From NCBI GenBank assembly GCA_001314865.1, contig LJZR01000005.1, positions 124,001 through 188,000 on the forward strand: DNA of 64,000 bases. The letters run 5' to 3'. The notes under the pieces were generated by a model. That model was not told the DNA's origin and did no database searches. It was given only the letters and a program-made list of their open reading frames with translations. The position numbers and the translations under genes were made by a program. The DNA comes from Phormidesmis priestleyi Ana. GTDB lineage: Bacteria; Cyanobacteriota; Cyanobacteriia; Phormidesmidales; Phormidesmidaceae. Position 1 is the stretch's first letter, and every line of letters starts with the position of its first letter. Shown piece by piece: positions 4,449 through 31,724 of the stretch.

Positions 4449-4483
4449 GGTGCAGAAAGGGTGGTCAACAAGGGTGGTCAACA

Positions 4484-5704
4484 TTAGTGAGCAGACTGAA
4501 CAGTTTGGAGCGTTTTTTGAACGACGGATTGCTCAATCGGCTGCGGCGCATCAGGATGATTTTGAATATATCGGCTGTAAAGAAAGTGGTTGAGCTTATG
4601 CTCCCATCCAGAAATCCATTTTTCGAGGCGATCGCTCCCGCGCCCAAAGGTCAGCCAATTGACCAACGGATACACCAGCAGCTCGCGGCGACGACCGCCC
4701 AGTCCGGCATAGCGTTTTTTGAAGTATTTATCTTCAGCTAGGTTCCACTTTTGGCGCAAATGATGAAGACTCGCTAAATCCCAGGCGTCACTCCAGCGCA
4801 GCATAAAGTAGGGTAAATCATACAGCTTGAAATCGGGTAATTGGGATTCTCCAAACCACTCCATAAGTCCAGTTTTGTTAGCTGCAATGCCGACAGTATC
4901 GGTAGTGATAACGGCAGTGCGATCGCTATAAATAGTTCCCCCTGCCTCGGTGACCATAAAACAAAAGTCAATATGCTCTCGGGTTGCCATCATGCCTTCA
5001 TCCAATAGCCCATTGGTCGCCTTAAAAGGCGCTGTTGAAAAAATGCTAGTCCGCACCAGCGCGCAGTGAAACTCCACATAATCGCACTGAACTCGGCATA
5101 GTTCATCCGGAACATCTGCAACAGCTTTTCCAGTAAGATAAGCAGACTGTTTTATTTTTCGCTTGATTTTACCGTTTGTAGTGCTGGTTTTAATGTACGA
5201 GCGTCCACCTGCGTTATGAATAACTTGATGGGCTGGATGACCAATACAGGTGAGCGGCCCGACTACAGCCGCATTCGTTTCTTCGGCACAAGCCACTAAT
5301 TGGGTGAGCCAACCCGGTTTAACAATAACGTCATTTTCCACAAACACGACATATTCGCTATCAGCACAGTCAAGAATAGTACGGTCAAGAACATAGCGCA
5401 GACCCAGGTTTCTGGCCTGATTAGGAGAAATATATCGCGCTGTGCGAATCACTTTAAACGATTCTTCCTCAGCTTTTTTTCGCAGATAGCGCTCAACAGG
5501 CTTTGGCGAGCAAACATCCACAAAAACCAAATCGAAGGGATAATGAGTATTGCTGTAAATACTTTCTAAACAGTCTTGAGTATAGCTAAAACGTTCTCTT
5601 GGACCTATTACTAAAGTGACTTTAGGCGTTTTTTTAGATGTTGACTGCACAAGTGCTTGGGGTTGTGTCTCAAGATAATCGCTAGCAGAGGATGTTGTTG
5701 TCAT
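4484..5704 (-). CDS. Glycosyltransferase family 2
   Basis: GT-A fold family 2 transferase of 406 residues. The N-terminus has VTLVIGPRERFSYTQDCL and DLVFVDVCSPK, followed by SPNQARNLGLRYV and the acceptor or metal motif VENDVIVKPGW. The ATG at 5704 is chosen over 5743 because AGGAAGAG lies six bases upstream. It is homologous to the second GT2 at 7372-8676: the same PRERF, SPNQARN, [12 protein letters not shown], QKWNLA and KRY blocks occur in both, so the pair arose by duplication. It lies in the minus-strand glycan cluster and presumably transfers one sugar of the exported product. The donor sugar is unknown. Confidence 0.88.
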   Translation of the reverse strand: MTTTSSASDYLETQPQALVQSTSKKTPKVTLVIGPRERFSYTQDCLESIYSNTHYPFDLVFVDVCSPKPVERYLRKKAEEESFKVIRTARYISPNQARNLGLRYVLDRTILDCADSEYVVFVENDVIVKPGWLTQLVACAEETNAAVVGPLTCIGHPAHQVIHNAGGRSYIKTSTTNGKIKRKIKQSAYLTGKAVADVPDELCRVQCDYVEFHCALVRTSIFSTAPFKATNGLLDEGMMATREHIDFCFMVTEAGGTIYSDRTAVITTDTVGIAANKTGLMEWFGESQLPDFKLYDLPYFMLRWSDAWDLASLHHLRQKWNLAEDKYFKKRYAGLGGRRRELLVYPLVNWLTFGRGSDRLEKWISGWEHKLNHFLYSRYIQNHPDAPQPIEQSVVQKTLQTVQSAH

Positions 5705-5816
5705 GATCTCTTCCTTATTTTTTGTTTGATAAACAGTAGTCAATTTTGGTTAATGCTGGTCAACGCTGGTTAATAGTGACCTCCTAAGATAGTCAACAGC
5801 ACTTGCTGGGCAAGGC

Positions 5817-6308
5817 TTAAAAGCTGACGCCGCTCTCGATCCGACCAAAGCCTTGAATAGGTTCATTGGTAATAGCTTCAAGTCCAATACTAAACGCCAA
5901 GTCAATGCCATTCGCTTCCACTTCGTAGGTAAGTTCGGGCTGCATAAACCACTCAAAATCGTCTTGACCAACCAAAATTTCTAACTCTAGCTCTGCTGAT
6001 TCACTGGCTGATTCACTGGCTGATTCACTGGCTGATTCACTGAGCAAAAAAATAGGGCCAATCTGCCATTTACTAAGCCTTTGCTCATCCAGGCTATATT
6101 CAAATTCTCCTCTAATTCGAGTGTCGGCAACGGCTATCAGTGTCGAATTCAGCAAAATAGAAATTGCTGAGATCCATATTGCTGAAATCCATATTGCTGA
6201 AATCCATATTGCTGAAATCCATATTGCTGAAATCCATATTGCTGAGATCCATTGAGTAGTACAGCAAGCGTGATCGCGAATGGGGTATTTTTTCACATGT
6301 TTTTCCAC
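5817..6308 (-). CDS. Small repeat-bearing protein, possible outer-membrane beta-barrel fragment
   Basis: An open frame of 163 codons starting at GTG 6308, seven bases after the aldo/keto reductase stop. I do not recognise a family. The N-terminal third is made by six copies of a 15-bp repeat (ISAIW units) and the middle by four copies of a 12-bp repeat (SESA units). The remaining sequence alternates polar and hydrophobic residues (RGEFEYSLDEQ, ELELEILVGQDDFEW, FMQPELTYEVE, IDLAFSIGLE) and ends in ESGVSF, a pattern typical of outer-membrane strands with a terminal Phe. It could be a truncated porin-like gene whose 5' part was overwritten by repeats. The repeats are also open in another frame (MDFSN units). 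Confidence 0.45.
   Translation of the reverse strand: MEKHVKKYPIRDHACCTTQWISAIWISAIWISAIWISAIWISAIWISAISILLNSTLIAVADTRIRGEFEYSLDEQRLSKWQIGPIFLLSESASESASESASESAELELEILVGQDDFEWFMQPELTYEVEANGIDLAFSIGLEAITNEPIQGFGRIESGVSF
5995..6042. repeat. 12-bp tandem repeat, 4 copies
   Basis: Four exact copies of GCTGATTCACTG lie inside the 163-codon frame. As the unit is a multiple of three, the frame stays open and reads SESA four times on the minus strand. Confidence 0.95.
6163..6252. repeat. 15-bp tandem repeat, 6 copies
   Basis: Six head-to-tail copies of ATTGCTGAAATCCAT occur; the first and last have G in place of one A. On the minus strand one frame reads ISAIW and another MDFSN. Confidence 0.95.
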
Positions 6309-6314
6309 AATGGT

Positions 6315-7280
6315 TTAGGCGATCGCCAAATTGCTCTGCTGCGTTTTGGTGAACTCAACCAAACGAGCCCTTTCTTCAGAAGAGAGCAGCATTTGCCCCG
6401 CGCTAGCATTGACAGCGACTTGTGCAGGAGACTTGGCACCTGCGATCGCTACGGGTTGAATAGGATGAGAAGTTACAAATTGCAGGGCGGCTGTCACCAT
6501 CTCTTCACCCGGTGCTAAAGCCGTTTTAAGATTCTCAACCTTAGTGAGCTTGCGAGCAAGCTTTTCTTTAGCCTTGTCGTTTTTGTACCATTCAGAGCGC
6601 ACCGTATCCGTAAACATTGTTTGAGAAGAATACTTTCCAGAGAGCAAACCCTTATGCAGTGGCCCTCTCACTAGCACGGCAATATTGTTGTCGGCGCAGT
6701 AAGGAAAAAACGCTTTATCAGGATCACGGCTCAACAGAGAATAATCAACTTCGACTACGCGGCAGGTGCCGTTAGTATTAAACAACTTAAGTACCTCTAA
6801 TTTATCTGTAGAAATGCCGTAAGTGCCAATGAGCCCCTGTTCTTTGAGCAGATCAAACCCTGCTAAATAGGTCTCTGCTAGCTGAGGATCGTCTAACTTA
6901 CCTTCATGGCAGAGCATGACATCGACATAGTCTGTTTTTAGGCGATAGAGAGAGGCATGAACACAGAGCCTGACCATATCTGTTGTAGTCATAGGCACCA
7001 TTTGTCCAGAGCGTCTGCCCCAGCGGCCAATTTTAGTGACCAAGTGAACGCGATCGCGCAGACCCACAAGTGCTTTGCCTAAGCGCTCTTCTGAAAGGCC
7101 CGCAGGAATGCCGTAAGATTCGGCAGTATCAATCATATTGATGCCATTTTCTACAGCGCTGCGGACAGTCGCGATCGCCGTTTCTTCGTCAATGTTGCCC
7201 CACTGATTGCCAATGTTCCAAGTGCCTAGGCCGATGGCCGATGCTTGGATGCCAGTAGTGCCAAAGTTACGATAAAGCAT
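6315..7280 (-). CDS. Aldo/keto reductase
   Basis: A 321-residue AKR superfamily enzyme, an NAD(P)H-dependent aldehyde/ketone reductase with a TIM barrel. The N-terminus MLYRNFGTTGIQASAIGLGT and the motifs MIDTAESYG (catalytic Asp and Tyr), LVTKIGRWG (Lys) and VMLCHEGK (His) form the usual catalytic tetrad. VAIAGAKSPAQV near the C-terminus is the cofactor phosphate-binding region. The start at 7280 is supported by CAGGAG about seven bases upstream. A longer in-frame ATG at 7454 would read through a heptanucleotide repeat and is rejected. It may modify a sugar nucleotide or lipid in this glycan cluster; general detoxification is equally possible. Confidence 0.9.
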   Translation of the reverse strand: MLYRNFGTTGIQASAIGLGTWNIGNQWGNIDEETAIATVRSAVENGINMIDTAESYGIPAGLSEERLGKALVGLRDRVHLVTKIGRWGRRSGQMVPMTTTDMVRLCVHASLYRLKTDYVDVMLCHEGKLDDPQLAETYLAGFDLLKEQGLIGTYGISTDKLEVLKLFNTNGTCRVVEVDYSLLSRDPDKAFFPYCADNNIAVLVRGPLHKGLLSGKYSSQTMFTDTVRSEWYKNDKAKEKLARKLTKVENLKTALAPGEEMVTAALQFVTSHPIQPVAIAGAKSPAQVAVNASAGQMLLSSEERARLVEFTKTQQSNLAIA

Positions 7281-7294
7281 GGGAAAACTCCTGA

Positions 7295-7368
7295 GGATTG
7301 GGGATTGGGGATTGGGGATTGGGGATTGGGGATTGGGGATTGGGGATTGGGGATTGGGGATTGGGGAT
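7295..7368. repeat. GATTGGG heptanucleotide repeat, about 10 copies
   Basis: Perfect tandem repeat of the 7-mer GATTGGG between the second GT2 gene and the aldo/keto reductase gene, just upstream of the latter's ribosome-binding site. Heptanucleotide arrays of this kind (the STRR class) are known from filamentous cyanobacteria. Confidence 0.95.
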
Positions 7369-7371
7369 GAC

Positions 7372-8676
7372 CTACCGACGGATGGGCTCAGCAGTGCTGT
7401 GTTTAGCGTAATAAACCTTACTGTCAGCGGTATTTTGACTAAGCGCACATTCACGAGCGGGAGAAGAGTTTGCCATATGCGAAGAGGGGAAAGGAGGTAA
7501 GTTTGGCTTGATGGTTGGGTGACTGGTAGAAGAACGCTGTAATTTTTGAGAGAATCGTGGTTCTGGATAGCTGCAAATTAGCGGAGTCTTGGCATTGTTG
7601 AGAGTGAACTGATACTGTCTGGAAAGATAGCGGTTAAAGAGTTTTTCGACGCGGACAAGGCGCTTTTCTAGCCATTTTTTAGCGGGTTCATTGAGGAAGG
7701 TAAACTGAGCGACCAGCGGTTGAATCAATTCTTTACGGCGGCGTTGACCTAGTTTTTTATAGCGTTTTTGAAAGTACTTGCTGTGGGCTAAGTTCCATTT
7801 TTGTTGAAAATGCTTAAGACTAGCCTTCTCCCATTCGTCGCTCCAGCGCAGCATAAAGTAAGGTAAATCGTAAGGCTGGAGAGCGGGCGCGGGGGGATGC
7901 GTGAGAAAGGTAACAACAGAAGTAGGCTCAAGATAGATAGGTTCGCCTAGTCGGGTAACGGTCATGCAAAAGTCTAGATATTCTTTAGTGCAGCAGCAGC
8001 CCTCGTCTAGCAGGCCAATGCGGTCGAACAAGTCGGTACGCACGAGCATGGCGTGAAATTCAATAAAGCCCACAGTTTGACGCTGAATTTGATCGTTGAC
8101 TTCGGCAAGGCGCTGATTCTGAAAATATGTTTTTTCTTCAATGGTCCACTGATGATCGATGGAGTTGCGATCGCCTTTGAATTCATTTTTATTAGACTCA
8201 GTTTGGTGGGAGGAAAAGACTTGAGAAAAGGCAGCATATTCGTCGGGTTCCATATAGTCGCCGCCGATGCAGTGAACAATACTGTGAAAGGGTTCGTACT
8301 GGCACACCAAAGAACCCACAACAGGTGCGTTAGTCTCCTGAGCGCACCTCATCAGGGCACTCAGCCAGCCGGAAGAAAATACAACATCGTTGTCTACAAA
8401 AACAACATAAGGGGTCTTAACCCGTCGCAGTCCTGCATTTCTGGCTTGATTAGGGGAGAGATAATAGGGCGATCGCACATGTTCAAAACCCTTTTCCTCG
8501 GCCTGCACTTGCAAATATTCATAGATATGTGACGGCGAGTTGTTGTCTACATAAATTAGCTCAAAAGGATACTGCGTATTGTCGTATAAGCTCTCTAACG
8601 ACTGCTGAGTGAACTGAAATCGTTCTCTGGGAACAACAATAATGGTAACCGGGGGCTGATGGGTTAGTTGAGTCAT
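7372..8676 (-). CDS. Glycosyltransferase family 2, paralogue
   Basis: A 434-residue GT2 protein. [48 protein letters not shown] and [11 protein letters not shown] match the paralogue at 4484-5704 block by block, including [12 protein letters not shown] and [17 protein letters not shown] lies five bases before the ATG at 8676. The last 70 or so residues (from about 365) are low-complexity and have no counterpart in the paralogue. Their coding DNA overlaps, in another frame, a segment related to 14565-14741, so the tail may have been acquired by loss of an earlier stop. It is probably the second sugar-adding step of the cluster. Confidence 0.88.
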
Positions 8677-8746
8677 GGGTGACCTCCAAAGATGAACTCA
8701 AGAAGAGAAATTTCAAGAAGAGAAATCTCAAAAGATGCAACAGATG

Positions 8747-10600
8747 CTAAATAGGGGCAGCAGCCTGCTTTAGCCTGTCTGAAATCATGGCAGTCTGTAG
8801 CTGATAGAGGGCAGCATAGTGCCCCGATTGGTGCATCAAATCGGTATGAGTGCCGCTCTCTATAATCCGACCTTTTTCGATATAAAACAGCCGATCAAAG
8901 TTTTTAGACGCTCGCAAATCATGCGTAATCAAAAACGTAGTAGATCCTTCAGTTAAACGCCTGAGCGCTTCATTCACGCTTTTTTCACTTTTGTTGTCAA
9001 GACCCACCGTGGGTTCATCAAGAATCACAATGCGAGCTTTGCGGATGGCAGCGCGGGCGATCGCAATTCGCTGCCGTTGTCCGCCCGAGAGGGTTGCACC
9101 GCGCTCGCTCATGAGCGTGTCGTATCCGTGGGGCAACTGCATGATAAAGTCGTGAGCATTGGCCAGTTTAGCGGCCTGCTCAATTTCTTTTTCGGTTGCA
9201 TTGAGCGCACCATAGGCAATATTTTCTCGTACGGTCGCACCAAAAAGAACGCTCTCTTGTAAAACAATACTCACCTGCTGACGCACCGACTCAATCGTAT
9301 AGTCGCGAATATCTTTTCCATCAATACAAACTTGGCCCAACAGCGGATCGTACAGGCGCAGCAGCAAGCTTACCAGCGTCGATTTACCACCGCCCGATGG
9401 CCCCACCAAGGCAATTCTCTCCCCAGCGCTGACCTCAAAGCTGACATCTTCTAAAATCATTCTATTCGATTCATAGGCAAAGTAAACATTGTTAAACGCC
9501 ACCTCACCTTTAAACGGGAGCGCTGCGATCGCTCCATGATTATTCTGTACCGCTGGCACCACATCAAACAAATCAAGAATTCGCTCCCCTGACGCGATCG
9601 CTTTAGAAATTTTAGCGGCTTCCTTAGCCAAATCGCGAGTGGGCTTAAAAGCCGTTTTGAGATAGGTAATAAAAACCAATAAATCACCAGGCGTTGCACC
9701 GCCCTGTTGAACAATAAGGGCACCCCGCCAGAGTACAAAAGCCGTGGCAATAGCCACCAATATTTCTGCCGTACGCTGCAGGCCAGCCGAAAGCTGCTGT
9801 GTTTGAGCACTATCTTCCAAACTCTGTCGGTTATCGTCCCCAAAAATCTTTTCTAACCGACCCTCTAGCGAAAGCGCCTGTACCACCTTAATTGCACCAA
9901 TGGCTTCGGCTGCGGTTGCGGCCATGGCACTTTCTCTTTTACGCTGCTGGCGAGAGACTTTTTTAATCCGCTTTGTGAGCTTAATACTAGAAATAAGAAA
10001 CAGCGGGAGAATGCCCATTGCAATCAGCGCTAGCTCCCAGTCAATCCAAAACATCACCACCACCATGCTGATCAGCGTGAGGGTATCTACAACCAGAGGT
10101 AGTGCGGCATTCACCGTAGTACTGCGCAGCGTATCCATATCGCTGGTAATGCGAGTGATGAGGTCGCCACTCTTAGTCTTGTGATAAAAAGAGAGCGAGA
10201 GCCGTTGAAGGTGTGCATACAGGTCGGCGCGCACCTCGGTAACCACACGACTCGCGGCAATAGAGAGCCCCACCAAACTCACATAAGCAGACATCGCCCG
10301 CAGCGCAGCCGTAGCCACAATTGCAAAGGCTAGCACCAGCAGCAACGTCTGAGAACTCATATCTCGCAATAGCGGCCAGTCTAGTTCTGCGTTATGCGCA
10401 TCGGGCACGAGCACAAAGTCAAAAATCAGCTTGAGCGGCCAGGGCGCTATCAGCCGCGAGAGCACTTTGGTGATTAGCGCAAATCCAGCCAAGGCAAACA
10501 GTCCCTGTTGGGTTTTAATATAGGGCCAAAACTGCCGCATGGTTCGCCGTATTCCTGGCCACGCCTGATTTAGAGTTTTTGGACGCTTACGTTTCATCAT
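8747..10600 (-). CDS. ABC exporter, fused permease and ATPase
   Basis: A 617-residue MsbA/LmrA-type half-transporter expected to act as a homodimer in the inner membrane. Residues about 25-320 form six transmembrane helices (ABC_membrane). The ATPase follows with Walker A GPSGGGKST, Q-loop VLQESVLFG, signature LSGGQRQRIAIARA, Walker B IVILDEPTVGLD and H-loop LITHDL, all intact. It is flanked on both sides by glycosyltransferase genes on the same strand, so export of a glycolipid or glycosylated product is the likely job. There is no clear Shine-Dalgarno before either of the two adjacent ATGs. A multidrug role cannot be excluded. Confidence 0.93.
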   Translation of the reverse strand: MMKRKRPKTLNQAWPGIRRTMRQFWPYIKTQQGLFALAGFALITKVLSRLIAPWPLKLIFDFVLVPDAHNAELDWPLLRDMSSQTLLLVLAFAIVATAALRAMSAYVSLVGLSIAASRVVTEVRADLYAHLQRLSLSFYHKTKSGDLITRITSDMDTLRSTTVNAALPLVVDTLTLISMVVVMFWIDWELALIAMGILPLFLISSIKLTKRIKKVSRQQRKRESAMAATAAEAIGAIKVVQALSLEGRLEKIFGDDNRQSLEDSAQTQQLSAGLQRTAEILVAIATAFVLWRGALIVQQGGATPGDLLVFITYLKTAFKPTRDLAKEAAKISKAIASGERILDLFDVVPAVQNNHGAIAALPFKGEVAFNNVYFAYESNRMILEDVSFEVSAGERIALVGPSGGGKSTLVSLLLRLYDPLLGQVCIDGKDIRDYTIESVRQQVSIVLQESVLFGATVRENIAYGALNATEKEIEQAAKLANAHDFIMQLPHGYDTLMSERGATLSGGQRQRIAIARAAIRKARIVILDEPTVGLDNKSEKSVNEALRRLTEGSTTFLITHDLRASKNFDRLFYIEKGRIIESGTHTDLMHQSGHYAALYQLQTAMISDRLKQAAAPI

Positions 10601-22216: not shown

Positions 22217-22230
22217 GTATTCATCAATAC
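22217..22230 (-). promoter_or_regulatory. NtcA site and -10 of amt
   Basis: GTATTCATCAATAC is an exact GTA-N8-TAC. Reading towards amt, 22 bases separate it from CATACT (22189-22194). This is the class-II layout of NtcA-activated promoters. Confidence 0.7.
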
Positions 22231-22288: not shown

Positions 22289-22795
22289 CTAGGGCTGATT
22301 TATTTTTGTCTTCAGGCAAGTTAGGTGTGACTGCGAAGCATGTATCTCTACAGCGGGTTGGCCTTGAATGTAGTGCCGCCAAATGACGAGGGCGATATCG
22401 TCAAGCTGGGCGGGAACTGCTTGATTGTTCGGTAGGTTGGCTAGGCGGTGAGGCGCTCTAACGCTCGCCTGTTCGATCAGCGCTGGCAGCCGGTCGAGGG
22501 TTATTTGCATCCTGCCGAGCCAGTCGTACTGTTTTATCCATATGCAATATTGTGGCCCCAACTGCTGTGCGATCAGTCGATCGAAAGCACCAGCGTAGGC
22601 TATGCGGAAGTTATAGTCGCATAGCCTTAAAACAGAGCAATTTTCATGTTGTATTGTCGTTTCTAAAGACTGAAAGGGCGCAAGATGGCCAATGGCCTCG
22701 CCGAAGAGAGATTTTGCCATGGCCAGCCCATCGACTCCGGCCATATCCCAGAGATGATGTGTCATGATTTGATGTGCCATGATTTGATGTGTCAT
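22289..22795 (-). CDS. Unknown protein coupled to the DUF1989-GcvT gene
   Basis: 168 residues, no family recognised. The start ATG overlaps the stop of the preceding gene (ATGA), so translation is coupled. The first 15 residues (MTHQIMAHQIMTHHL) derive from a 15-bp tandem duplication; a later Met (residue 18, MAGVDGLAMAKSLFG) could be the functional start. The rest is globular, with AYAGAFDRLIAQQLGPQY, IWIKQYDWLGRMQITL and WRHYIQGQPAVEIHAS. There is no signal peptide or membrane helix. As the last gene of an amine-catabolic operon it may be a small subunit of the GcvT-like enzyme, much as sarcosine oxidase has small subunits; that comparison is by position only. Confidence 0.65.
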   Translation of the reverse strand: MTHQIMAHQIMTHHLWDMAGVDGLAMAKSLFGEAIGHLAPFQSLETTIQHENCSVLRLCDYNFRIAYAGAFDRLIAQQLGPQYCIWIKQYDWLGRMQITLDRLPALIEQASVRAPHRLANLPNNQAVPAQLDDIALVIWRHYIQGQPAVEIHASQSHLTCLKTKINQP

Positions 22796-22797
22796 GA
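22754..22797. repeat. 15-bp tandem repeat at a gene junction
   Basis: Three copies of a unit near GATGTGTCATGATTT create alternative in-frame ATGs at the overlap of the DUF1989-GcvT gene and the 168-residue gene. Confidence 0.85.
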
Positions 22798-24678
22798 TCG
22801 TGCCCTACTTTTAGTAGGATCAAAGGCTGCGAGTGGGCCAACGGTGGCTTCAATGCGGCGTTTGATACCGTCGAGTAGGCCAACTTCTACTATGGTTGCG
22901 GGTTGGGCGTATTCTGGAGCGATTTGAGCGATCGCAATACTTTTATTCAAAATAGGCGAAAATGTGGCGCTGGTAATATGGCCCACGCGCCAACGCTCAC
23001 CCTGGGCAAACACACACTGCCCATGAGCCGCGACCTCGTTGCCTTGTAGGACTAATCCAACAGTGACTCTAGGCGGATGCTGCCGAATGGCTTCTAGCGC
23101 CGATTTGCCGATGAAATCTGGTTTTTTCATGGCGACCGTCCAGCCAATGCCCGCCTGGTAAGGCGAGGTTAAATCATCAAATTCGTATCCCCTAGCCAAC
23201 AGTCCCGCCTCAATGCGGGCTCGATTGAGCGCGTTCATACCTAGTGGTTGCAGGCCTTGGGGTTTGCCCGCTGCCATCAACCTATTCCATAGCTGCGGCC
23301 CATAGCGGGGATGAACAAACAACTCATAGCCCAGTTCGCCTGTATATCCAGTTCGTGAGAGCAAAACGGGAATGTCGTCTATCCAAACGGGCTCAAATTG
23401 AAAGTAGCCGAGGTGGTGGAGTGAAAAGCTATCGAGCGAGGGGGAAATTGGCGTGATTAAAGGGGCCAGAATGCTGCCAGAGGCAGGCCCTTGCAAAGCA
23501 AGATTGTGAACCTGGGGGCTGATATCTGTGACTGTTGCACTCCAGCCCTGGTGCTGAGCAATTTTTGCCAGCCAGTCGCCGTCACTATCGCAGTTGCCTA
23601 CATAGCGATAGTGAGTTGGGCTAAAGCAAAAAACAATGCCGTCATCTACAATGCCGCCGTGAGGATTGAGCAAGCAGCCATAGGCACAGTGACCGGCGGT
23701 AATTTTTTCTACATTGCGAGAAAAGGCATATTGCAACAAGGCAAAGGCATCTGCGCCGGTAATTTCAAACTTGCGCAGGGCGGAAAGATCCATGAGTGCG
23801 GCTTTTTCTCGCAGCGCCCAGTATTCGGCCAAATCACCCTGATGGGCAAAACTGCTGGGCACCCAAAAACTGTTGTATTCGCTCAAATCGTCGGTGAGTG
23901 AGCGGATGCGAGGAGTGAACGCACTCTCTTGAGTGAGTCGTAGTGGTAAGTCGGCAGCGATTCTTGTTCCGGTGAGTCGTGGAAATGTTTGATGGGCCGC
24001 GTAGATGCGAATATGAATGGGTGTGGGCTGCCAGCCGTTGGCAGGGTCAATATCGTCGGGGCAAGCAGAGCTGGCGCACAGAAGGTTTTGATGGGCTTGT
24101 AACAGCACATAGTCGCCCGGACGAGACCAAGATTCTGCGGCTGTGACGTGGTTTGTGTCGTTGATGTGAGTATTGAAAAAGAAGTTAATTGCAGGCCAGC
24201 CGGGTCTGGGCTGAATCCCGTAGGGAGCGAGTACTTGGTTGAAATTGTCGCTACAGCTAGGGTGGCCCGGATAGCCTGCGTCTTCGTAGTAGCGAGATGT
24301 GCAGGCCAGAAGGAAGCTATCGTGGCGATCGCAGGTTGATTGAATCACCTCCACCATTGGCTGCAGGGTCTGAGAAAAGTACTTGCCATGCAGCCCTGCT
24401 TGCGGGTTGGCGATGCCGTTGAGCGTGCGCGTCACCGTACTGTCTATTTCTTGTCTGTCTATTTCCGACCTAGAAACATTGGCTGAGTCTTCAGCAAATG
24501 CTAAAAAATCAGAGCATTGAGAACCGGCTACATCAATGATTTGAATATATTGACCTTTTACGACAGGATAGGCTTGAGCGCTACCGGGCTCAAGCCGATA
24601 TTCTGCAACGACTATGCCCAACGGTGAGGGAATATCTAAATAAGGGCTGTGAGATGGTTCCTTAGTGACAGCAAGCAT
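22792..24678 (-). CDS. DUF1989 (urea-carboxylase-associated) fused to GcvT aminomethyltransferase
   Basis: A two-domain protein of about 628 residues. The N-terminal part is DUF1989, the fold of the urea-carboxylase-associated and carboxyguanidine deiminase subunits, with metal-site-like motifs AGSQCSDFLAF, GHPSCSDNFNQVL and CASSACPDDIDPANGW. The C-terminal part (from about residue 265) is a folate-binding GcvT/DmgdO-type domain: YWALREKAALMDLSAL, LQYAFSRNVEKITAGHCAYG, LLNPHGGIVDDGIV, ALQGPASGSIL, LSRTGYTGELGYELFVHP and GLLARGYEFDDLTSPYQAG. GcvT-like domains pass methylene or methyl groups from amines to tetrahydrofolate. Start 24678 overlaps the amine oxidase stop by 17 bp; a longer frame begins at 24723. 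The fusion suggests deimination or demethylation of a methylated N-compound. Confidence 0.85.
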   Translation of the reverse strand: MLAVTKEPSHSPYLDIPSPLGIVVAEYRLEPGSAQAYPVVKGQYIQIIDVAGSQCSDFLAFAEDSANVSRSEIDRQEIDSTVTRTLNGIANPQAGLHGKYFSQTLQPMVEVIQSTCDRHDSFLLACTSRYYEDAGYPGHPSCSDNFNQVLAPYGIQPRPGWPAINFFFNTHINDTNHVTAAESWSRPGDYVLLQAHQNLLCASSACPDDIDPANGWQPTPIHIRIYAAHQTFPRLTGTRIAADLPLRLTQESAFTPRIRSLTDDLSEYNSFWVPSSFAHQGDLAEYWALREKAALMDLSALRKFEITGADAFALLQYAFSRNVEKITAGHCAYGCLLNPHGGIVDDGIVFCFSPTHYRYVGNCDSDGDWLAKIAQHQGWSATVTDISPQVHNLALQGPASGSILAPLITPISPSLDSFSLHHLGYFQFEPVWIDDIPVLLSRTGYTGELGYELFVHPRYGPQLWNRLMAAGKPQGLQPLGMNALNRARIEAGLLARGYEFDDLTSPYQAGIGWTVAMKKPDFIGKSALEAIRQHPPRVTVGLVLQGNEVAAHGQCVFAQGERWRVGHITSATFSPILNKSIAIAQIAPEYAQPATIVEVGLLDGIKRRIEATVGPLAAFDPTKSRARS

Positions 24679-26596
24679 TTTTTGCAGGGGAGGGGGGCAC
24701 GTCGTTAGCCGGATTCTCGTCAAAGAAGTTGAGCGGTTTTAGCATAAAGCCAATGGTTGCAACCGGCATGATCGGCCAGTCTTCGGCACGCGGAGAGTGA
24801 CTATGAGCAAAGGTGTACCACACTACGATGTCGGTATCCGCGACGGGGCGATCGCGCTGAGTCCATTGGGTTAATCCTTCTCCACCAGGGTGCTGATTGG
24901 GATAGTCGCCTGCCGGATAATTCTCATCTTCGTGGTAGGGGGTTACCCACAGGTGCTTACTCATGTAGCTCGCTCGCTGACTGACGCTGGCATCTGGGCG
25001 GGCCATGGAGGCGGTGTTTTCTCCTGGCATCAGCTTGTAGGCCGTTGGATAGCCCATTGCGTTGGTTTTAGAAGAATTCACAATTTTCCAGTAGCGGCCC
25101 TGCATGGGGTCAATTAATCGCTGCGCGGTTTGCTCGGTGGGCAGAAGGGTCGATTTGGCATAAAAGGCGTTGCCGTAGGGATTGTGCTCATCGACTTCGG
25201 GGACGATATCTACTTCATAAACAGAGTTGTTGCCGCCATCTACCTGCATATCCATACGGACGTTGAAAATATGTTGGTGAATGGGCGCGTTGAGCTGCGG
25301 TGCGATTAATGTGCCGTACTTGGGTATTTCACCTGGCATGACGGCAGCAGTGCTGACCACGCCAGTGAGTTTGACTTCGTACTGAATGGTGCCGTCTTGA
25401 TAGAAGTACCAGTAAAATCCGTATTCATAGTTGCCAACGGTGGCGATAAAGGAGACCACTAAGCGACGCGATCGCCTCACCTCAGCCTGTTCTGTCCGCC
25501 AGTCTACATGCTTCCACAAAATGCCAAAGTCTTCTTCATGCAGACAAATGGCATTCTCTATTTGCACCACTTCACCTTTAGAGTTGGTGATAAAGCCATC
25601 GAAGTAATAAATTTCACCCAGGCAATCACAGCCTAATTTGAGCGAATTTGCCAGCGAGCCAATGCCATATTCTCCCACATCAAACGCATTTTTACGATAG
25701 TGATGGGGGGCAGGATCGCCATAGGGCACAGTCATTTCGGCCAGTGAAGCCCGGTAAAAAATAGGTCGCTCATGCTCACCATCTTGGTAAGTGACGTCAT
25801 AGAGTACGAGTCCTTCACGCGGCGTAAAGCCCACTCGAATTTTCCACTTTTGCCAGCGAATTTCATGGTCTTTTACTTCAAAGCTAGGGCCTTCTGGCTG
25901 TACAATTTCCAGCGGTTTAATGTCGGTTCGATAGTTTTTGACATACTCTGGCGTATAGTTGCCATCTTTAGGTGGCAGAGGAACAACGCCGTAGTCTTCA
26001 ACCCGAATGACCTCCATTTTGTTGAGATCGACGACCGGAATCACGCCTTCAATGGGCCTTGCATAGCCATGATCGGTCGGACTAGATCTAACCCAGCACA
26101 GCGCTCTTGAAAGGCGAGTCCCCTCTTCGTCGGCAATGCCGTAGTGACCTGCCGACCAGGGATCGACCATGACTAGGTCTGGGTTGGTGATGCCGCGTTT
26201 GGCGATCGCCGCTAGAAACTCCGGACTGGCTTTAACCGCAGCTTCGCATTCTACAAATTCATCGAGCATAATTGGCGGCTGTACGCCCGGAATATGTACC
26301 CAAGATTTCACCTCGCCAGTGCTCAATGAAACCACCGCCTCGTAGGTTTTGGCCGTTGCGTTATCTAGCAAAATAATAAAGGCTTCTCGCTCAATCGTAT
26401 CGCCCGGCTGAAAGCTTAAAACGGTTGCTTTGGGGGGCTCTTTAAGCGTCACGGTGGCAAAGCGGACGCGATCGCCCAAAGACGGTTGCGCCCGTGCGAT
26501 CGCAACTGCTGCGGAGATTTCATCAGGTGTGAGTGGCTCTAGCGGATGGCTAACGCCAACGGATGTGCTCAAAGGTCGATCTGTTACAAAGGTCAT
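24662..26596 (-). CDS. Copper amine oxidase (topaquinone enzyme)
   Basis: 644 residues, normal for bacterial copper amine oxidases, which convert primary amines, O2 and water to aldehyde, NH3 and H2O2. The topaquinone precursor Tyr is in VGNYEYGF (consensus N-Y-[DE]-Y). The first two copper ligands are in IHQHIFNVRMDMQVDGG (H-x-H) and the third in HSPRAEDWPIMP. The catalytic Asp region appears as the EIYYFDGFI block. There is no signal peptide, so it is probably cytoplasmic like the arthrobacterial phenethylamine and histamine oxidases. AGGAA lies nine bases before the ATG. It sits in the middle of the 29.0-22.3 kb operon. Confidence 0.94.
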   Translation of the reverse strand: MTFVTDRPLSTSVGVSHPLEPLTPDEISAAVAIARAQPSLGDRVRFATVTLKEPPKATVLSFQPGDTIEREAFIILLDNATAKTYEAVVSLSTGEVKSWVHIPGVQPPIMLDEFVECEAAVKASPEFLAAIAKRGITNPDLVMVDPWSAGHYGIADEEGTRLSRALCWVRSSPTDHGYARPIEGVIPVVDLNKMEVIRVEDYGVVPLPPKDGNYTPEYVKNYRTDIKPLEIVQPEGPSFEVKDHEIRWQKWKIRVGFTPREGLVLYDVTYQDGEHERPIFYRASLAEMTVPYGDPAPHHYRKNAFDVGEYGIGSLANSLKLGCDCLGEIYYFDGFITNSKGEVVQIENAICLHEEDFGILWKHVDWRTEQAEVRRSRRLVVSFIATVGNYEYGFYWYFYQDGTIQYEVKLTGVVSTAAVMPGEIPKYGTLIAPQLNAPIHQHIFNVRMDMQVDGGNNSVYEVDIVPEVDEHNPYGNAFYAKSTLLPTEQTAQRLIDPMQGRYWKIVNSSKTNAMGYPTAYKLMPGENTASMARPDASVSQRASYMSKHLWVTPYHEDENYPAGDYPNQHPGGEGLTQWTQRDRPVADTDIVVWYTFAHSHSPRAEDWPIMPVATIGFMLKPLNFFDENPANDVPPSPAKNACCH

Positions 26597-26649
26597 GAAG
26601 TGAATTTCCTATTTGGGTATCTTCTAAATAATCTCTGGCCGATCCTTAA

Positions 26650-28095
26650 TTAATCTCTTCCTGTACTTGCCATTGCCATTTCCGGCCTTTTCAAAAGTGT
26701 TTCAGAATTGTCCACTTCAGCTAAAAGAATTTCAGCCAGTTTCCGTTTGTCCTCAGCGGTCATTTTCTTTAACTCATTGTGCAGCATTCGCTCATTGACA
26801 GATTGATTCCAATAGTCCAAGCTCTCAAAGCCTAGCAGTGCAGATTTTCCAACGAATTGGCGCAGAATTTCATTGGTTGGTCCCATCACCCAGCCCGCCT
26901 TGCCATCGCGCAAATATCGCTCTATTTCCATATCTTTTTTAAAGCCTGATCCGCCGCAGGCATGGAGCATTTTGTCGCATACATGAGCCACATTTTTTGC
27001 TGCCGAAAATTTAATTTGCCAGTACCAGTGCAAATAGGCCGAGCGCGGCAGTGCCAAGGTATCGGCATGGAGAGACCAGTCACAATTATTGGTGAGTCGA
27101 TCCATCAGCTGCCCCATAGAAAAGGTATACATCCGGCAGGCGCTAGTGTCGATAATCGCTTCGCCAAAGTAGTCTTGAATGGTGGGATAGTCGGCTACTC
27201 GCATGCCTACATCGACATGTTTTTTACGGGTCACATGCTTTTTGGCGATATCAATCGCCCCGAGCGCAATTCCATTCCAACAGGCCGAAGAACAGAGTAA
27301 AAAGAAAGGATCTACAATTTCATCATTAGAGGCGACGCCATCGCCGATGGGGCCAACCATTCGCTGCGGGGGAACCACCACGCCATCTACCAGCAGACTG
27401 CCAGACTGATTGCCGCGCAATCCCATTGCATCCCACTTGTGGGGCTCGGCCTGAGCTTCGTCACCGTAAATTAAAAAGCAGGAAAGATCGGAATAGTCGC
27501 CATCAAAGTTGGGGCTAGTCGTTTGCACAATATACCAGTCGGCAAATCCTGCTGAGGTGGTCCAGGAGGCTCGCTTAAATACCTGCCAGCCAGCTGCGAT
27601 TTCTTCTGCCCGAGAGGAAACCGGATACCAAAAGTGAGAACCGGTTTCTGGATCAGAGTAGGACAAGGTTCCAATTGAAACCTTGGCATCTAAGTCTTGA
27701 AGCAGCGTTTGCAGTTCAATATTGTCATGGGCTCTAAACAGCGCAGCGGCCACTGCGCCCAAGTGCATGGTGTAGCACATTGCCGTACTCGGACAGCCGT
27801 AGCGGGCAATGGTTTCAACAATCATAGCGGCGCAGGTATGATTTTCACCCAATCCACCCCATTCTTGGGGGACTAGCAGGCCCAGCAAGCCCAAAGAGGC
27901 TAAAGCTTCAAAGTTTTTGCGGGGATAGATGAGGTTTTGATCGGAGGCGATCGCATTGGGCCTAAGCACCTTTGCGCATAGGTCAATCAGCTTATCTTGC
28001 AGCGTCTGTTGCTGAGGCGTTAGCAGCCACTGCGGGTCAAAGTCTTCGCTGAGGCCACCGAAGAATGTTTTATCAGCCTGAGTTGTCGTAGTCAT
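26650..28095 (-). CDS. Acyl-CoA dehydrogenase-superfamily flavoprotein
   Basis: 481 residues. The ACAD fold is recognisable: helical N-domain (GLLGLLVPQEWGGLGENHTCAAMIVETIARYGCPSTAMCYTMH), middle beta domain (SIGTLSYSDPETGSHFWYPVS, FKRASWTTSAGFADWYIVQTT, KWDAMGLRGNQSGSLLVDGVVVP) and a C-terminal helical domain (HACGGSGFKKDMEIERYLRDGKAGWVMGPTNEIL, the FAD/dimer motif). The catalytic Glu of true acyl-CoA dehydrogenases is not obvious. The superfamily also includes flavin monooxygenases and nitroalkane or amine-oxidising enzymes, so an N- or C-oxidation step in amine breakdown is possible. It is co-transcribed with the dioxygenase upstream (30-bp gap) and the amine oxidase downstream (53-bp gap). 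Confidence 0.85.
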   Translation of the reverse strand: MTTTTQADKTFFGGLSEDFDPQWLLTPQQQTLQDKLIDLCAKVLRPNAIASDQNLIYPRKNFEALASLGLLGLLVPQEWGGLGENHTCAAMIVETIARYGCPSTAMCYTMHLGAVAAALFRAHDNIELQTLLQDLDAKVSIGTLSYSDPETGSHFWYPVSSRAEEIAAGWQVFKRASWTTSAGFADWYIVQTTSPNFDGDYSDLSCFLIYGDEAQAEPHKWDAMGLRGNQSGSLLVDGVVVPPQRMVGPIGDGVASNDEIVDPFFLLCSSACWNGIALGAIDIAKKHVTRKKHVDVGMRVADYPTIQDYFGEAIIDTSACRMYTFSMGQLMDRLTNNCDWSLHADTLALPRSAYLHWYWQIKFSAAKNVAHVCDKMLHACGGSGFKKDMEIERYLRDGKAGWVMGPTNEILRQFVGKSALLGFESLDYWNQSVNERMLHNELKKMTAEDKRKLAEILLAEVDNSETLLKRPEMAMASTGRD

Positions 28096-28125
28096 AAGTG
28101 GGGATAAAAATGGCGTTGGGTTAGG

Positions 28126-29025
28126 CTAAACAGCAACTGTCATTGGATTGCTCAGCGGATCGGCACAATAGTCCGCCAAATGAGGCGTGCGATAGCCATC
28201 TTTTTGCCATAGCACCGGAAAGAAACTCTCATCCATTTCAGTGCTATTTACGCGCTTATAGCGCCCGTAAATATAGCCTGGAGAATTGGTGGGATGAAAC
28301 TGGGTATTGGCCGGAATGGTATGTAGCCCAATACTGTGAAAGCTGCCTTCTGTGCGCGTTGTTTGGCACAAACCATGCCAGGTTCGTCCATGGTGAAACG
28401 CGCAACCGCCTGCCGGAACTTCGACAACAACCAGCTCTGGCTCATCTACACCGGCATTTTCTGCGGCCTGAAGCATTGCCCAACGATAATCTTTTTTAGG
28501 TGCGTGAAACTCTCCCTCTACGCTGGCGAGGGGCCATTTGTGAGAACCTTTGACATAGACAAGCGTGCCATCGGCAGCAGCGGCGTCATTAAGGGCGACC
28601 CAGCAGGTCATCATAGCGGCAGGCGCTAAATAGTTGATGTAGGTGCCGTCTTGATGCATGGCGATCGCCTGCGCACCGGGCGGCTTCATCCAAAGGCTGT
28701 CTTGACCAATGCGGGCACCGTCCCAACCGGCTAACGTGGCGGTGAGTCGGCCAATTTCGGCAGAGAGTACTAGGCTGGCAATAGTGCGATCGCTCTTCCA
28801 GGCATTACACATCTCGCGCGTAATATCCGGCAAGCTCATACTGGGCCGCCAATGCCATTCATCTGGGAAAATGCCCGTCTCAAACTCGCCATGAAACAGC
28901 GGTTCCATACGGCTCTCTAGCTGCTGGGCAAATTCAGCAGGCAAAAAATTCTCCACAATCAAAAATCCATCTTCTTCAAACTGTTGTAGCTGTGCTTGAG
29001 AAAGATTGATCGGCTGGTAGTTCAT
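28126..29025 (-). CDS. Phytanoyl-CoA dioxygenase-family (PhyH) oxygenase
   Basis: 299 residues; a non-heme Fe(II)/2-oxoglutarate oxygenase. IAMHQDGTYINY supplies the HxD iron ligands and GGCAFHHGRTWHGLCQTTRTEGSFHSIGLHTIP the distal His and the Arg that holds 2-oxoglutarate. Length is normal. It is the first gene of the minus-strand amine operon and faces an upstream region with a GntR-type site (29197-29210) and a near-consensus NtcA site (29230-29243). Family members hydroxylate or oxidatively demethylate small substrates; oxidative N-demethylation would suit the neighbouring GcvT-like gene, but that is inference. Confidence 0.9.
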   Translation of the reverse strand: MNYQPINLSQAQLQQFEEDGFLIVENFLPAEFAQQLESRMEPLFHGEFETGIFPDEWHWRPSMSLPDITREMCNAWKSDRTIASLVLSAEIGRLTATLAGWDGARIGQDSLWMKPPGAQAIAMHQDGTYINYLAPAAMMTCWVALNDAAAADGTLVYVKGSHKWPLASVEGEFHAPKKDYRWAMLQAAENAGVDEPELVVVEVPAGGCAFHHGRTWHGLCQTTRTEGSFHSIGLHTIPANTQFHPTNSPGYIYGRYKRVNSTEMDESFFPVLWQKDGYRTPHLADYCADPLSNPMTVAV

Positions 29026-29196
29026 ACACTTGAGGCATCCTTACGAAACTGGCTGATAAAAACCTACTGATAAAAACTCACTGTAAAAAAACCTATTGCA
29101 AAAACCCATTGCAAAAACCTATTGGCTGGCGAAAATCTAGCGAATGAAAATCTATCTGATAAAAACCTATTGACAAAACAAAGCTAGCAAACTCTA

Positions 29197-29210
29197 CTTG
29201 TCATAATAAG
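29197..29210 (-). promoter_or_regulatory. GntR-type operator candidate, phyH operon
   Basis: CTTGTCATAATAAG differs from the gntR-promoter palindrome at two positions. It covers TATTAT (29203-29208, minus strand), the -10 expected 21 bp after the NtcA-like site. Confidence 0.45.
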
Positions 29211-29229
29211 TTTCTGTCAAAAAGAAAAT

Positions 29230-29243
29230 GTATTATTCGTCAC
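29230..29243 (-). promoter_or_regulatory. Near-consensus NtcA site, phyH operon
   Basis: On the minus strand it reads GTGACGAATAATAC: GTG-N8-TAC, one base off GTA-N8-TAC, 21 bp before TATTAT. Confidence 0.4.
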
Positions 29244-29297
29244 TTTTCAGCAAACCTTTTAGCAAATCCTTTGAGAAAAATAGAGGAAGAACAAGTC

Positions 29298-30035
29298 ATG
29301 ACATTTGAAAAAACACTCACTGCTCAACCCGGTGTCCTTAATATTGTCACTAGCGACTTTGATGCGCGCCCAATGAGCTACCTCACTTCTGATGGCTACC
29401 GTGCCGGGTATGAACCTGAACTGGCTCGCCTAGTCTGCCAAAGACTCGGTTTAAAGCCGGTTTGGCACAACCTGCCTATGGCCGACTTCTACCATTCGTT
29501 ACAGGCTTCAGGCGCAAGCGAACCGCCCTACGATATTGTCTGGTTTAATCAAGCCATTACACCCGAAAGGCAACAGTGGGTGAACTTCACACAGCCCTAT
29601 GGTTTGTTTGACGAGGCCGTTATTGTAAAAGCCGCAAGCTCTGTTGCTAGCCCTGCGGATCTTGCCGGACAGCGAGTGGGCGGGCTAGCCGATAGCACCA
29701 ATATTGCCTTGGTAGAAGGCTTTCCCGGTGCCACAGCTGTCCCTTATCCCGGTAGCGACAAAGTGCTTCCCGAGATGCTCGCAGCGCTGCGGGCAGGCGA
29801 AATTGATGCCCTCATTGACGATGAACTTGTTTTGCTAGTCGCCGCTCAAGAAGACCAAATGCTCAAGCTTGCCTTTAGTTTGGCAACCCAGGTGCCTTTC
29901 GCCATCGGCGTTGCCAAAGAACGGCAAATATTACGAGATAAGCTCAACGACACGCTCACCGACTTGCTCGCCGATGGCACGATGGCCGAGCTGTGGACGC
30001 AGTGGATTCCTTGGAAGGCATTTCCACTCTCGTAG
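29298..30035 (+). CDS. Solute-binding-protein-like (family 3) protein without signal peptide
   Basis: 245 residues of the SBP_bac_3 fold: GVLNIVTSDFDARPMSYL, DGYRAGYEPELARLVCQRLGL, YDIVWFNQAITPERQQWVNFTQPYGLFDEAVIVK, DLAGQRVGGLADSTNIALVEGF, AALRAGEIDALIDDELVLL and FAIGVAKERQILRDKLNDTL. The ATG at 29298 has GAGGAAG eight bases upstream. Family members are normally periplasmic with a leader; here the frame upstream of the ATG contains no hydrophobic signal, and no permease or ATPase gene is adjacent. It may be a cytoplasmic ligand sensor or binding protein acting with the downstream ligase. Its stop codon overlaps the NtcA site of that gene. Confidence 0.82.
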   Translation: MTFEKTLTAQPGVLNIVTSDFDARPMSYLTSDGYRAGYEPELARLVCQRLGLKPVWHNLPMADFYHSLQASGASEPPYDIVWFNQAITPERQQWVNFTQPYGLFDEAVIVKAASSVASPADLAGQRVGGLADSTNIALVEGFPGATAVPYPGSDKVLPEMLAALRAGEIDALIDDELVLLVAAQEDQMLKLAFSLATQVPFAIGVAKERQILRDKLNDTLTDLLADGTMAELWTQWIPWKAFPLS

Positions 30036-30194: not shown

Positions 30195-31724
30195 GTGACT
30201 GGAGTTCTCATTCGGACTGACAAGCCTGGCAATGGAAAGGCGGTCACTGACAGCCCAACAGATTTGGAGGCTTATGTCCATGCAGAAGGGAGAGATGAGC
30301 TAGTCAAGCAGGTTCGCGCCAAAATAGACGAACTAGGCGTTCAATACATTTACTATCAGTTCATTTCTATTACGGGCAAAATCACCGGTAAGGGTGTTCC
30401 GGCAGACCATTGGGAAACCATCGCACAAGGGGGTATTCAGCTGGTATATGGCGCAACGGTAAACTTAACGCTAAACCGTCAGCAGCAGTATTTAGGCTAT
30501 GGCCCCGAGTCGGCTGAGCTGGTAGCGATTCCCGATCCTGACACCTTTTGCCAGCTGCCCTGGGATAAACGAGTCGCGCGCGTTTACTGCATGTGCTTTC
30601 GCAATCGGGAAGAAGAGGAGAATCCTGGTGCTTATCTCACGTCGGACTGTCGCGGTAACCTGATGCGGCTGCATGATGCGTTTCAACAAAAGCACGGACT
30701 CCAGCTTCGTCATGGCTGTGAGCCAGAGATGATGTGGCTTAAAAAAGGGCCTGATGGCCAGCCAGCGGGCGGTGTAACCAAGCCAAACTGCTATCACATT
30801 GATCAGTTTGAAGAACTGCGCCCAGTGTTTTTAAAGGTGATTGAATATTCTCGGGCAATGGGTTTGGATATGATTCAGGGCGACCATGAGGATGCGCCCG
30901 GTCAGCTAGAGCTGAACTTTATGTATGACGATGCGTTGCGGACATGCGATCGCCTCACCACCTACCGCCAAATTTGTGCTCAGGTCGCTCGTGAATTCAA
31001 CCTAATCGCCTGCTTTATGTCCAAGCCCTTCTTGGGTGTGTCAGCCTCAGGTTGCCATCATAATCTTTCTCTTTGGCGTGGTGGTGAAACGGTTGTCAAA
31101 AAGTTTGGCATGGAGAGTTTGCCTGGGCTCGAAGGTAACTACACTTACCACCAAGGGGGTGAAAACACCTTTATGCCGGTAGCTGGCGAATCACCCCGCA
31201 TTCCTGGCCCGATTGGGCTCAACTGTATTGGCGGTGTCATTGCCCATTTGGGTGCTCTCACAGCGGTTGGTTGTTCTACTGTAAATTCTTACCGTCGCCT
31301 ATGGGATGCTGGCTTTTGGGCACCCGTTTACTCGGACTGGGGCTACCAAAATCGTACCTGTGGTTTAAGAGTGTCAGCGCCTGGCCGGTTTGAATATCGC
31401 GCTGTGGATTCGATGGTGAATCCTTACCTTATGGCCGGTGCGATGTTACAAGCTTTTGACGATGGCCTCAGCAACAGTTTAGATCCAGGTCAGCCGGAGC
31501 AGCGCAATATTTATGAGGCAATGGAAGCTGGAAAACAAACTAAAAAACTGCCGATGTCGCTGGGTGAAGCGTTAGATCGATTGGCAGATGATGAGGTTAT
31601 TAAGTCGGCGATGCCCGGTGAAATGTACCGTCTATATGAGGAATACAAGCGCGATGAGTGGATTCGGTTTTTAGCGACAACCAGCAACTGGGATGCTGAA
31701 AATTATATGAACTGCCTGCCTTAA
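30195..31724 (+). CDS. Glutamine synthetase-family ligase, GS-I
   Basis: 509 residues, the most divergent of the three GS-family proteins here. Metal and substrate motifs are LRHGCEPEMMWL (E-x-E), QGDHEDAPGQLELNF, FMSKPFLGVSASGCHHNLSLW, STVNSYRRLW and NRTCGLRVSAPGRFEYRAVDSMVNPYL. The usual GSGxHxHxS reads ASGCHHNLS, so the second His (nucleotide contact) is Asn. It starts at GTG 30195 with GGGAGAG upstream. GS-family ligases join glutamate to ammonia or to amines by ATP-dependent gamma-glutamylation. Its position beside amine-oxidising genes suggests an amine ligase rather than the primary glutamine synthetase, but the acceptor cannot be read from sequence. Confidence 0.88.
   Translation: MTGVLIRTDKPGNGKAVTDSPTDLEAYVHAEGRDELVKQVRAKIDELGVQYIYYQFISITGKITGKGVPADHWETIAQGGIQLVYGATVNLTLNRQQQYLGYGPESAELVAIPDPDTFCQLPWDKRVARVYCMCFRNREEEENPGAYLTSDCRGNLMRLHDAFQQKHGLQLRHGCEPEMMWLKKGPDGQPAGGVTKPNCYHIDQFEELRPVFLKVIEYSRAMGLDMIQGDHEDAPGQLELNFMYDDALRTCDRLTTYRQICAQVAREFNLIACFMSKPFLGVSASGCHHNLSLWRGGETVVKKFGMESLPGLEGNYTYHQGGENTFMPVAGESPRIPGPIGLNCIGGVIAHLGALTAVGCSTVNSYRRLWDAGFWAPVYSDWGYQNRTCGLRVSAPGRFEYRAVDSMVNPYLMAGAMLQAFDDGLSNSLDPGQPEQRNIYEAMEAGKQTKKLPMSLGEALDRLADDEVIKSAMPGEMYRLYEEYKRDEWIRFLATTSNWDAENYMNCLP

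Follow-up and report, generated by a model that had tools for sequence, protein, structure and literature searches.

The window analysed here, 64,000 nt of the Phormidesmis priestleyi Ana genome (GCA_001314865.1, contig LJZR01000005.1, positions 124,001-188,000; coordinates below are those of the window), carries at 22289-29025 a five-gene operon that, judging from sequence, probably encodes a cyanobacterial route for scavenging nitrogen from small methylated amines. Trimethylamine (TMA) would be converted to trimethylamine N-oxide (TMAO), then to dimethylamine (DMA), methylamine and ammonia, with an unrelated flavoprotein taking the place of trimethylamine monooxygenase (Tmm). A broader proposal, which we regard as an even call, has two parts. 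A second, unrelated family of trimethylamine monooxygenases with the acyl-CoA dehydrogenase (ACAD) fold, with the window protein as founding member, would have taken over from Tmm next to TMAO demethylase (Tdm) in cyanobacteria, actinobacteria and Xanthobacter; and cyanobacterial Tdm would have been rebuilt as two genes, losing the degenerate DUF1989 domain at its N-terminus and gaining a degenerate GcvT subunit encoded separately. New here are the probable second family of trimethylamine oxygenases and the two-gene demethylase of cyanobacteria.

The operon and its conservation

Five open reading frames (ORFs) were confirmed on the minus strand, in the following order:

28126-29025, minus strand: PhyH-type Fe(II)/2-oxoglutarate oxygenase, the first gene (PF05721, E 5e-23)
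26650-28095, minus strand: ACAD-fold flavoprotein (ACAD-like; ACAD Pfam domains), proposed functional replacement of Tmm
24662-26596, minus strand: copper/topaquinone (TPQ) primary amine oxidase (CAO; PRK11504, 995 bits), proposed methylamine oxidase
22792-24723, minus strand: Tdm-like DUF1989-GCV_T-GCV_T_C fusion (PF09347, PF01571, PF08669)
22289-22795, minus strand: stand-alone 168-aa protein of mini-GcvT/SoxG fold (predicted structure), proposed non-catalytic partner of the Tdm-like protein

The PhyH and ACAD-like genes are separated by 30 nt and the ACAD-like and CAO genes by 53 nt; the CAO and fusion ORFs overlap by 62 nt from the listed TTG start or by 17 nt from the ATG at residue 16, and the fusion and 168-aa ORFs by 4 nt. 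This agrees with a first-pass annotation made from the letters of this DNA, which had described five tightly spaced genes, the last three overlapping, and whose named domains were confirmed by Pfam. It had also proposed a search for the five-gene order in other genomes. Among the fusion loci named here by L numbers, which are the best 80 of 577 confirmed ones (591 stretches matched), the order PhyH-ACAD-CAO-fusion-168aa is kept in L007 and L023 and runs on there into a gene for an Amt-family transporter; ACAD-CAO-fusion-168aa-Amt is kept in L009 and L012, and CAO-fusion-168aa-Amt in L006.

A Tdm-like fusion without the N-terminal domain

The fusion scores 805 bits with the NCBIfam model of TMAO demethylase (NF053776, model positions 142-762 of 763; equivalog cut-off 1100 bits), and its residues 21-643 match the solved Tdm structure PDB 9q59 with E 1e-171. 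It shows the DUF1989 plus GcvT architecture of Tdm and is 46-51% identical to non-cyanobacterial homologs. The Zn/Fe site of Methylocella silvestris Tdm, as given in PMC12560246, consists of D198, C263, H276, C279, C343 and D346; these correspond to D72, C141, H154, C157, C221 and D224 of the window protein. Across the 79 rows compared, out of 83 fusion proteins, the six residues do not vary. These rows comprise 17 cyanobacterial and 5 further ACAD-type proteins and, of the Tmm type, 6 from cyanobacteria and 51 others (L071 among the 51); the remaining four rows come from genomes with neither Tmm nor ACAD. The GGxxDD motif of the GcvT domain is found in 83 of 83 fusion proteins. According to the same 2025 paper (PMC12560246), the tetrahydrofolate-contact residues are replaced in Tdm by F487 and L618, and the window fusion carries the same two residues, which bears on whether the one-carbon unit would be passed to folate, as the first-pass annotation had supposed.

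The chemistry suggested by the first-pass annotation is in the right area, and its idea of an operon acting on an amine, probably an N-methylated one, is supported, but it did not recognise the central enzyme as one of a known type: the DUF1989-GcvT combination that it took for uncharacterised is the architecture of TMAO demethylase. We rejected its reading of the DUF1989 part as deiminase-like, and also a urea-amidolyase-associated protein, since the UAAP models reach 84 and 53 bits versus 805 for Tdm. No support was found for a guanidino compound, its other candidate substrate.

In PMC12560246 the N-terminal DUF1989-like domain of Tdm is called ubiquitous. It is absent from the cyanobacterial fusions, whose ORFs start at the second domain: complete cyanobacterial ORFs have 601-671 aa and most others 750-860 aa (exceptions are L029 with 645 aa, L053 and L057, whose starts are over-long, and L069, truncated by a contig end). 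Each of the 58 loci from outside the cyanobacteria, L029 among them (E 3e-26), is matched by a profile of this domain. With the 25 cyanobacterial loci the profile gives weak matches (E 2e-10 to 0.06) which, where examined, mostly sit on the related DUF1989 domain itself. Because the N-terminal domain is missing and the NF053776 cut-off is missed, we call the protein Tdm-like and not canonical Tdm. It most likely works like Tdm, and from homology we strongly infer that it would split TMAO into dimethylamine and a one-carbon (C1) unit. TMAO as the substrate is supported by a true Tmm (NF058570, 790 bits; cut-off 675) near the fusion in cyanobacterial loci L004, L005 and L018.

Some further Tdm-related loci were seen. 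One genome of the phylum (G005, contig 125, L164) retains the fusion and 168-aa genes only in decayed form and has no full fusion elsewhere, so that this organism has apparently lost the pathway. In Candidatus Obscuribacter (L030), a non-photosynthetic cyanobacterial relative, Tdm is of the long form, has Tmm as its neighbour and falls into the non-cyanobacterial clade. A Tdm homolog (E 1e-80) occurs in 139 of 72,556 plasmid records, mostly from Rhizobium (95), Acinetobacter (20) and Paracoccus (10); the Tdm gene is therefore plasmid-borne in some groups.

The 168-residue protein

The window's 168-aa protein has no Pfam or NCBIfam match. Among 21 members of its family none matches Pfam SoxG, two match GCV_T weakly (best 0.0022) and none carries the GGxxDD motif; a PDB profile search with the family returned two major histocompatibility complex sequences at E 0.3 and nothing else. 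An AlphaFold2 model built from the family alignment, which omits the frame-broken copy of L006, reached a pLDDT of 92, and with it Foldseek found 1yx2 (1.8e-8) and the SoxG chain 1vrq_C (3.4e-4). The predicted fold is that of the GcvT folate-binding domain or the sarcosine oxidase gamma subunit. In non-cyanobacterial loci the best matches of the 168-aa profile are the GcvT domain of Tdm (E 1.7e-6 and weaker), and hhalign relates the family to this domain with probability 95 and E 2e-8. We also considered the protein as the split-off N-terminal domain of Tdm and rejected this: the hhalign probability is 0.2 and the fold is GcvT.

Of 24 cyanobacterial loci retrieved, 21 have the gene downstream of the fusion, and in the other three a contig end is at most 70 nt away, which makes 21 of 21 testable loci; the distance is at most 150 nt in 19. 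Wider spacing is seen in L018 (646 nt, with another ORF between) and L026 (1188 nt). Among 386 genomes of the window's phylum, the sole sample not picked for Tdm, the protein is present in four: three with a Tdm-like gene, and G005. On the simplest reading of these patterns, the 168-aa protein would descend from a GcvT domain and serve the Tdm-like protein as a partner without catalytic function.

Two reading-frame defects may be mentioned: the 168-aa gene is frame-broken in L006 (3971-4249), and in L023 the amine oxidase is split between two ORFs (8123-10065). Since both are low-coverage metagenome-assembled genomes (MAGs), error and decay are indistinguishable here.

The ACAD-like protein, a probable replacement of Tmm

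Tmm in the window's genome is represented by nothing more than a 29% partial match (E 5.4e-8). We searched 81 genomes, chosen for having Tdm, for Tmm and ACAD at E<=1e-60. Of these, 39 were selected by us, including four of the five non-cyanobacterial ACAD genomes found, and 42 were others; L032 and L037 are one genome, and the genome of L071, outside the 81, was counted as Tmm-type without a genome search. Tmm alone was found in 55 genomes (16 and 39, respectively), ACAD alone in 22 (21 and 1) and both in none. Within the 25 cyanobacterial genomes of this set the figures are 6 with Tmm, 17 with ACAD, none with both and two with neither, and within the 82 loci themselves Tmm was seen in 44, ACAD in 13 and both in none. 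In the phylum sample ACAD is found in one of 386 genomes, the window's own. Three genomes of this sample have a Tdm-like gene, and Tmm is missing only from the window's. ACAD was not confirmed in any of 33 stretches of viral contigs that matched a pattern, and none of the 72,556 plasmid records contains it at E 1e-60.

On a tree of 57 of the 83 fusion proteins, pruned of 25 closely related sequences and of the truncated L069, the Tmm/ACAD label changes at least five times, and both types occur inside the cyanobacterial clade. Among six independent pairs on supported branches, three go the opposite way, none the same way and three show no difference (sign test, p 0.25). The exclusion might mostly reflect shared ancestry and sampling, with few events behind it. 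That the loci are the best 80 of 577 and that the opposite-going pairs number only three would fit such an explanation; the absence of both genes together from all 81 genomes, the repeated label changes, the two types inside one cyanobacterial clade and the similar positions of ACAD and Tmm beside Tdm in unrelated groups speak against it, and we consider it improbable.

In Methylocella silvestris (L084) the order is DmmD-Tmm-Tdm, where DmmD stands for a DmmD-type GcvT gene. In Xanthobacter L051 a DmmD-type GcvT gene (on the opposite strand) is followed by ACAD, Tdm, an amino-acid-permease-type transporter, DmmA, DmmB and a HODM-family gene, the last placed by coordinate conversion. In actinobacterial loci L041, L057 and L066 ACAD ends 447-542 nt upstream of the Tdm match, so that, allowing for the N-terminal domain of Tdm, little room is left between the two genes. 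For a second Xanthobacter (L078, G458) there is no ACAD match in the locus sequence, which begins near a contig end and so leaves any adjacent ACAD out of view. Gene position beside Tdm supports replacement of Tmm by ACAD, and the ACAD-like protein is likely to be such a replacement. A role as substitute for the DMA monooxygenase was set aside: L051 keeps DmmAB and the HODM gene, so ACAD is not needed there as a DMA enzyme.

The ACAD homologs are 59-86% identical to the window copy. The fold was confirmed by Pfam and Foldseek, at 15-24% identity to the 50 best structure matches. In acyl-CoA dehydrogenases the catalytic base is the glutamate of the YEGT motif; all 22 aligned homologs have glycine at this position (Gly405). 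The base used instead by isovaleryl-CoA dehydrogenase was assessed only by eye. ACAD-fold flavoproteins that oxygenate nitrogen or sulfur are known as group D monooxygenases. One of them, ACIAD0428, oxidises dimethyl sulfoxide, according to PMC13352529.

Two other roles for the ACAD-like protein have to be weighed. It might, perhaps together with PhyH, act upstream of TMA, breaking a quaternary amine (choline, betaine or a carnitine-like compound) and releasing TMA or TMAO for the Tdm-like enzyme. PhyH indeed shares the operon here and has homologs in fusion loci L004, L007, L015, L018 and L023, and crotonobetainyl-CoA dehydrogenase is among the weak matches of the ACAD-like protein (53 bits, cut-off 540). 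However, such a role leaves it unexplained that ACAD and Tmm were not found together in any genome searched, and PhyH stands in loci of Tmm genomes (L004, L018) as well as of ACAD genomes (L007, L015, L023), with no match in the non-cyanobacterial loci examined. The missing YEGT glutamate also argues against it, and we think this role unlikely. Rather less likely still, the protein could act as a dehydrogenase or oxidase and remove methyl groups straight from TMA or DMA, without TMAO as an intermediate, with the Tdm-like protein separately serving environmental TMAO. The ACAD fold is mostly a dehydrogenase fold and dehydrogenases top the searches, but among the 386 genomes of the phylum ACAD was seen once, in a Tdm-bearing genome, it adjoins Tdm in unrelated groups, and Xanthobacter L051 retains DmmAB and a HODM gene for DMA.

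A few neighbours of ACAD deserve mention. N-hydroxy and N-oxide compounds are substrates of YcbX/mARC-type MOSC proteins. A stand-alone MOSC_N/MOSC protein lies upstream of the fusion in L014, L015, L017, L020 and L021 (by domain scan in L017, by clustering in the others); it comes after ACAD in L015, L017 and L021 and is farther from it in L020. In the latter locus the stretch between ACAD and the fusion (3516-9100) contains a permease, a creatininase-family gene (PF02633) and two glutamine-synthetase-like genes, a hint that some cyanobacteria may use an additional step involving an amide or glutamyl link.

Amine oxidase and later steps

Copper amine oxidases are recognised by the TPQ motif NY[DE]Y and three histidine ligands. 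The window CAO exceeds the PRK11504 cut-off (651 bits), and its NYEY and HQH...H align with Arthrobacter phenylethylamine oxidase; from these sequence features it is a predicted primary-amine oxidase. At E<=1e-60 a CAO match is present in 23 of 25 Tdm-bearing cyanobacteria and in none of the seven other genomes searched, and the gene lies within the cluster in five cyanobacterial loci besides the window. In this gene context methylamine would be its natural substrate.

The best PDB match of PhyH is SnoK (4.6e-10); perhaps this protein acts in N-demethylation or makes the amine substrate. Another candidate for demethylation lies 33 kb from the operon:

58021-58995, plus strand: HODM-alpha-type haem N-demethylase-like protein (PF11927, 250 bits)

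The HODM family is found in six of the 25 Tdm-bearing cyanobacteria.

Nitrogen context

The unit is bigger than five genes. Amt follows downstream in the same direction, and genes for a solute-binding-like and a glutamine-synthetase-like protein diverge upstream, likewise in L023:

20549-21961, minus strand: Amt-family ammonium (or methylammonium) transporter (PF00909, 1.6e-64), a conserved downstream neighbour
22217-22230, minus strand: NtcA-like site GTAN8TAC, then N22 and CATACT, upstream of amt
29271-30035, plus strand: SBP_bac_3 (solute-binding-like) protein (PF00497), divergent from the operon
30195-31724, plus strand: glutamine-synthetase-like ligase (PF00120), which may glutamylate an amine

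The order 168aa-Amt is found in seven relatives. Upstream of amt, in the window and in all seven, GTAN8TAC is followed after 22 nt by CAYACT (spacing by eye), a layout that matches that of NtcA promoters. The GTAN8TAC pattern occurs 44 times in 300 kb of cyanobacterial loci, and in the window 11 sites were observed versus 6.1 expected. The conserved putative site points to nitrogen control of amt. The intergenic stretch 29026-29270, upstream of PhyH, contains several imperfect copies of a TAGGTTTTT-like unit (by eye).

The SBP_bac_3 protein shows no signal peptide evident by eye and may be a cytosolic sensor or binding protein; homologs stand near the fusion in L004, L018, L019 and L023. The ligase scores 295 bits with TIGR03105, below the cut-off of 469.6, and is 72% identical to the ligase in L033, whose neighbours are read as N-methylglutamate-synthase-like.

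The proposed route and what weighs against it

Taken together, the genes can be arranged in five steps. The ACAD-fold flavoprotein would oxidise trimethylamine to TMAO in place of Tmm. The Tdm-like protein, presumably with the 168-aa protein as its non-catalytic partner, would split TMAO into dimethylamine and a C1 unit. Dimethylamine would be converted to methylamine, for which PhyH and the HODM-like protein at 58021-58995 are candidate enzymes. CAO would then convert methylamine to ammonia, formaldehyde and H2O2, and Amt, under NtcA-type nitrogen control, would retain ammonium or methylammonium.

Several observations weigh against this route. The fusion misses the equivalog cut-off for Tdm and lacks its N-terminal domain, as described above. 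Ordinary acyl-CoA dehydrogenases lead the profile and fold searches with the ACAD-like protein, the flavin monooxygenase 5z8t appearing at rank 11, and the predicted model is of moderate quality (pLDDT 69.6). A two-component monooxygenase of the ACAD fold would be expected to work with a flavin reductase, and the operon genes include none (the genome elsewhere was not searched). The nearest solved relatives of CAO are phenylethylamine oxidases, and PhyH is without a settled place in the route. In Tildeniella (L010) ACAD and CAO are, as inferred from match positions, on a different contig from the fusion. Four of the 81 genomes, the cyanobacterial drafts G404 and G405 and the Rhodospirillaceae MAGs G441 and G456, have neither Tmm nor ACAD; all 81 were picked for Tdm from the top-scoring loci of a longer list, and with few independent switches behind the exclusion the statistics are suggestive and not proof. 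Finally, GTAN8TAC is found neither upstream of PhyH in the window nor, in relatives, in any of 16 stretches preceding the first gene (two shortened by contig ends).

Relation to known systems

In titles and abstract openings of open-licence PMC articles we found no report of a cyanobacterial TMAO demethylase or of an ACAD-fold trimethylamine oxygenase, texts naming both cyanobacteria and TMAO demethylase being left unexamined. Chen is said to have proposed in 2012 that Tmm can serve as a functional marker of methylated-amine use. Should an unrelated flavoprotein do the job of Tmm, Tdm-bearing organisms without Tmm would have been counted wrongly, and the users of methylated amines as nitrogen would include some filamentous cyanobacteria. 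The cyanobacterial Tdm-like form shows which domain of Tdm may be dispensable and offers a natural two-gene version for studying the mechanism.

With Tdm of Methylocella silvestris and Ruegeria (PDB 9q59/9q5a) the window protein shares DUF1989 followed by GcvT, the Zn/Fe residues and GGxxDD in the GcvT domain, and some cyanobacterial fusions are likewise near Tmm. Unlike Tdm, it lacks the N-terminal DUF1989-like domain and is followed by a separate mini-GcvT gene, in a genome without Tmm. The Tmm-Tdm-DmmDABC pathway of Methylocella, the Roseobacter group and Paracoccus has the same logic, from TMA through TMAO and DMA to monomethylamine, and an Amt-family gene nearby. Here, in cyanobacterial hosts, an ACAD-fold protein stands for Tmm, CAO is in the cluster and no DmmABC is among the cluster genes.

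The ACAD fold of group D flavin monooxygenases (for example ACIAD0428, DszC and DnmZ), which the window protein shares, serves in known enzymes for oxygenating sulfur and nitrogen; the window family differs in its low identity to the best structure matches, in having no reductase in the operon and in being found with Tdm. The 168-aa protein resembles SoxG and the GcvT N-terminal domain in its truncated GcvT fold and in its gene lying beside that of a GcvT-bearing protein, whereas Pfam gives no SoxG match and its best sequence match is instead the GcvT domain of Tdm.

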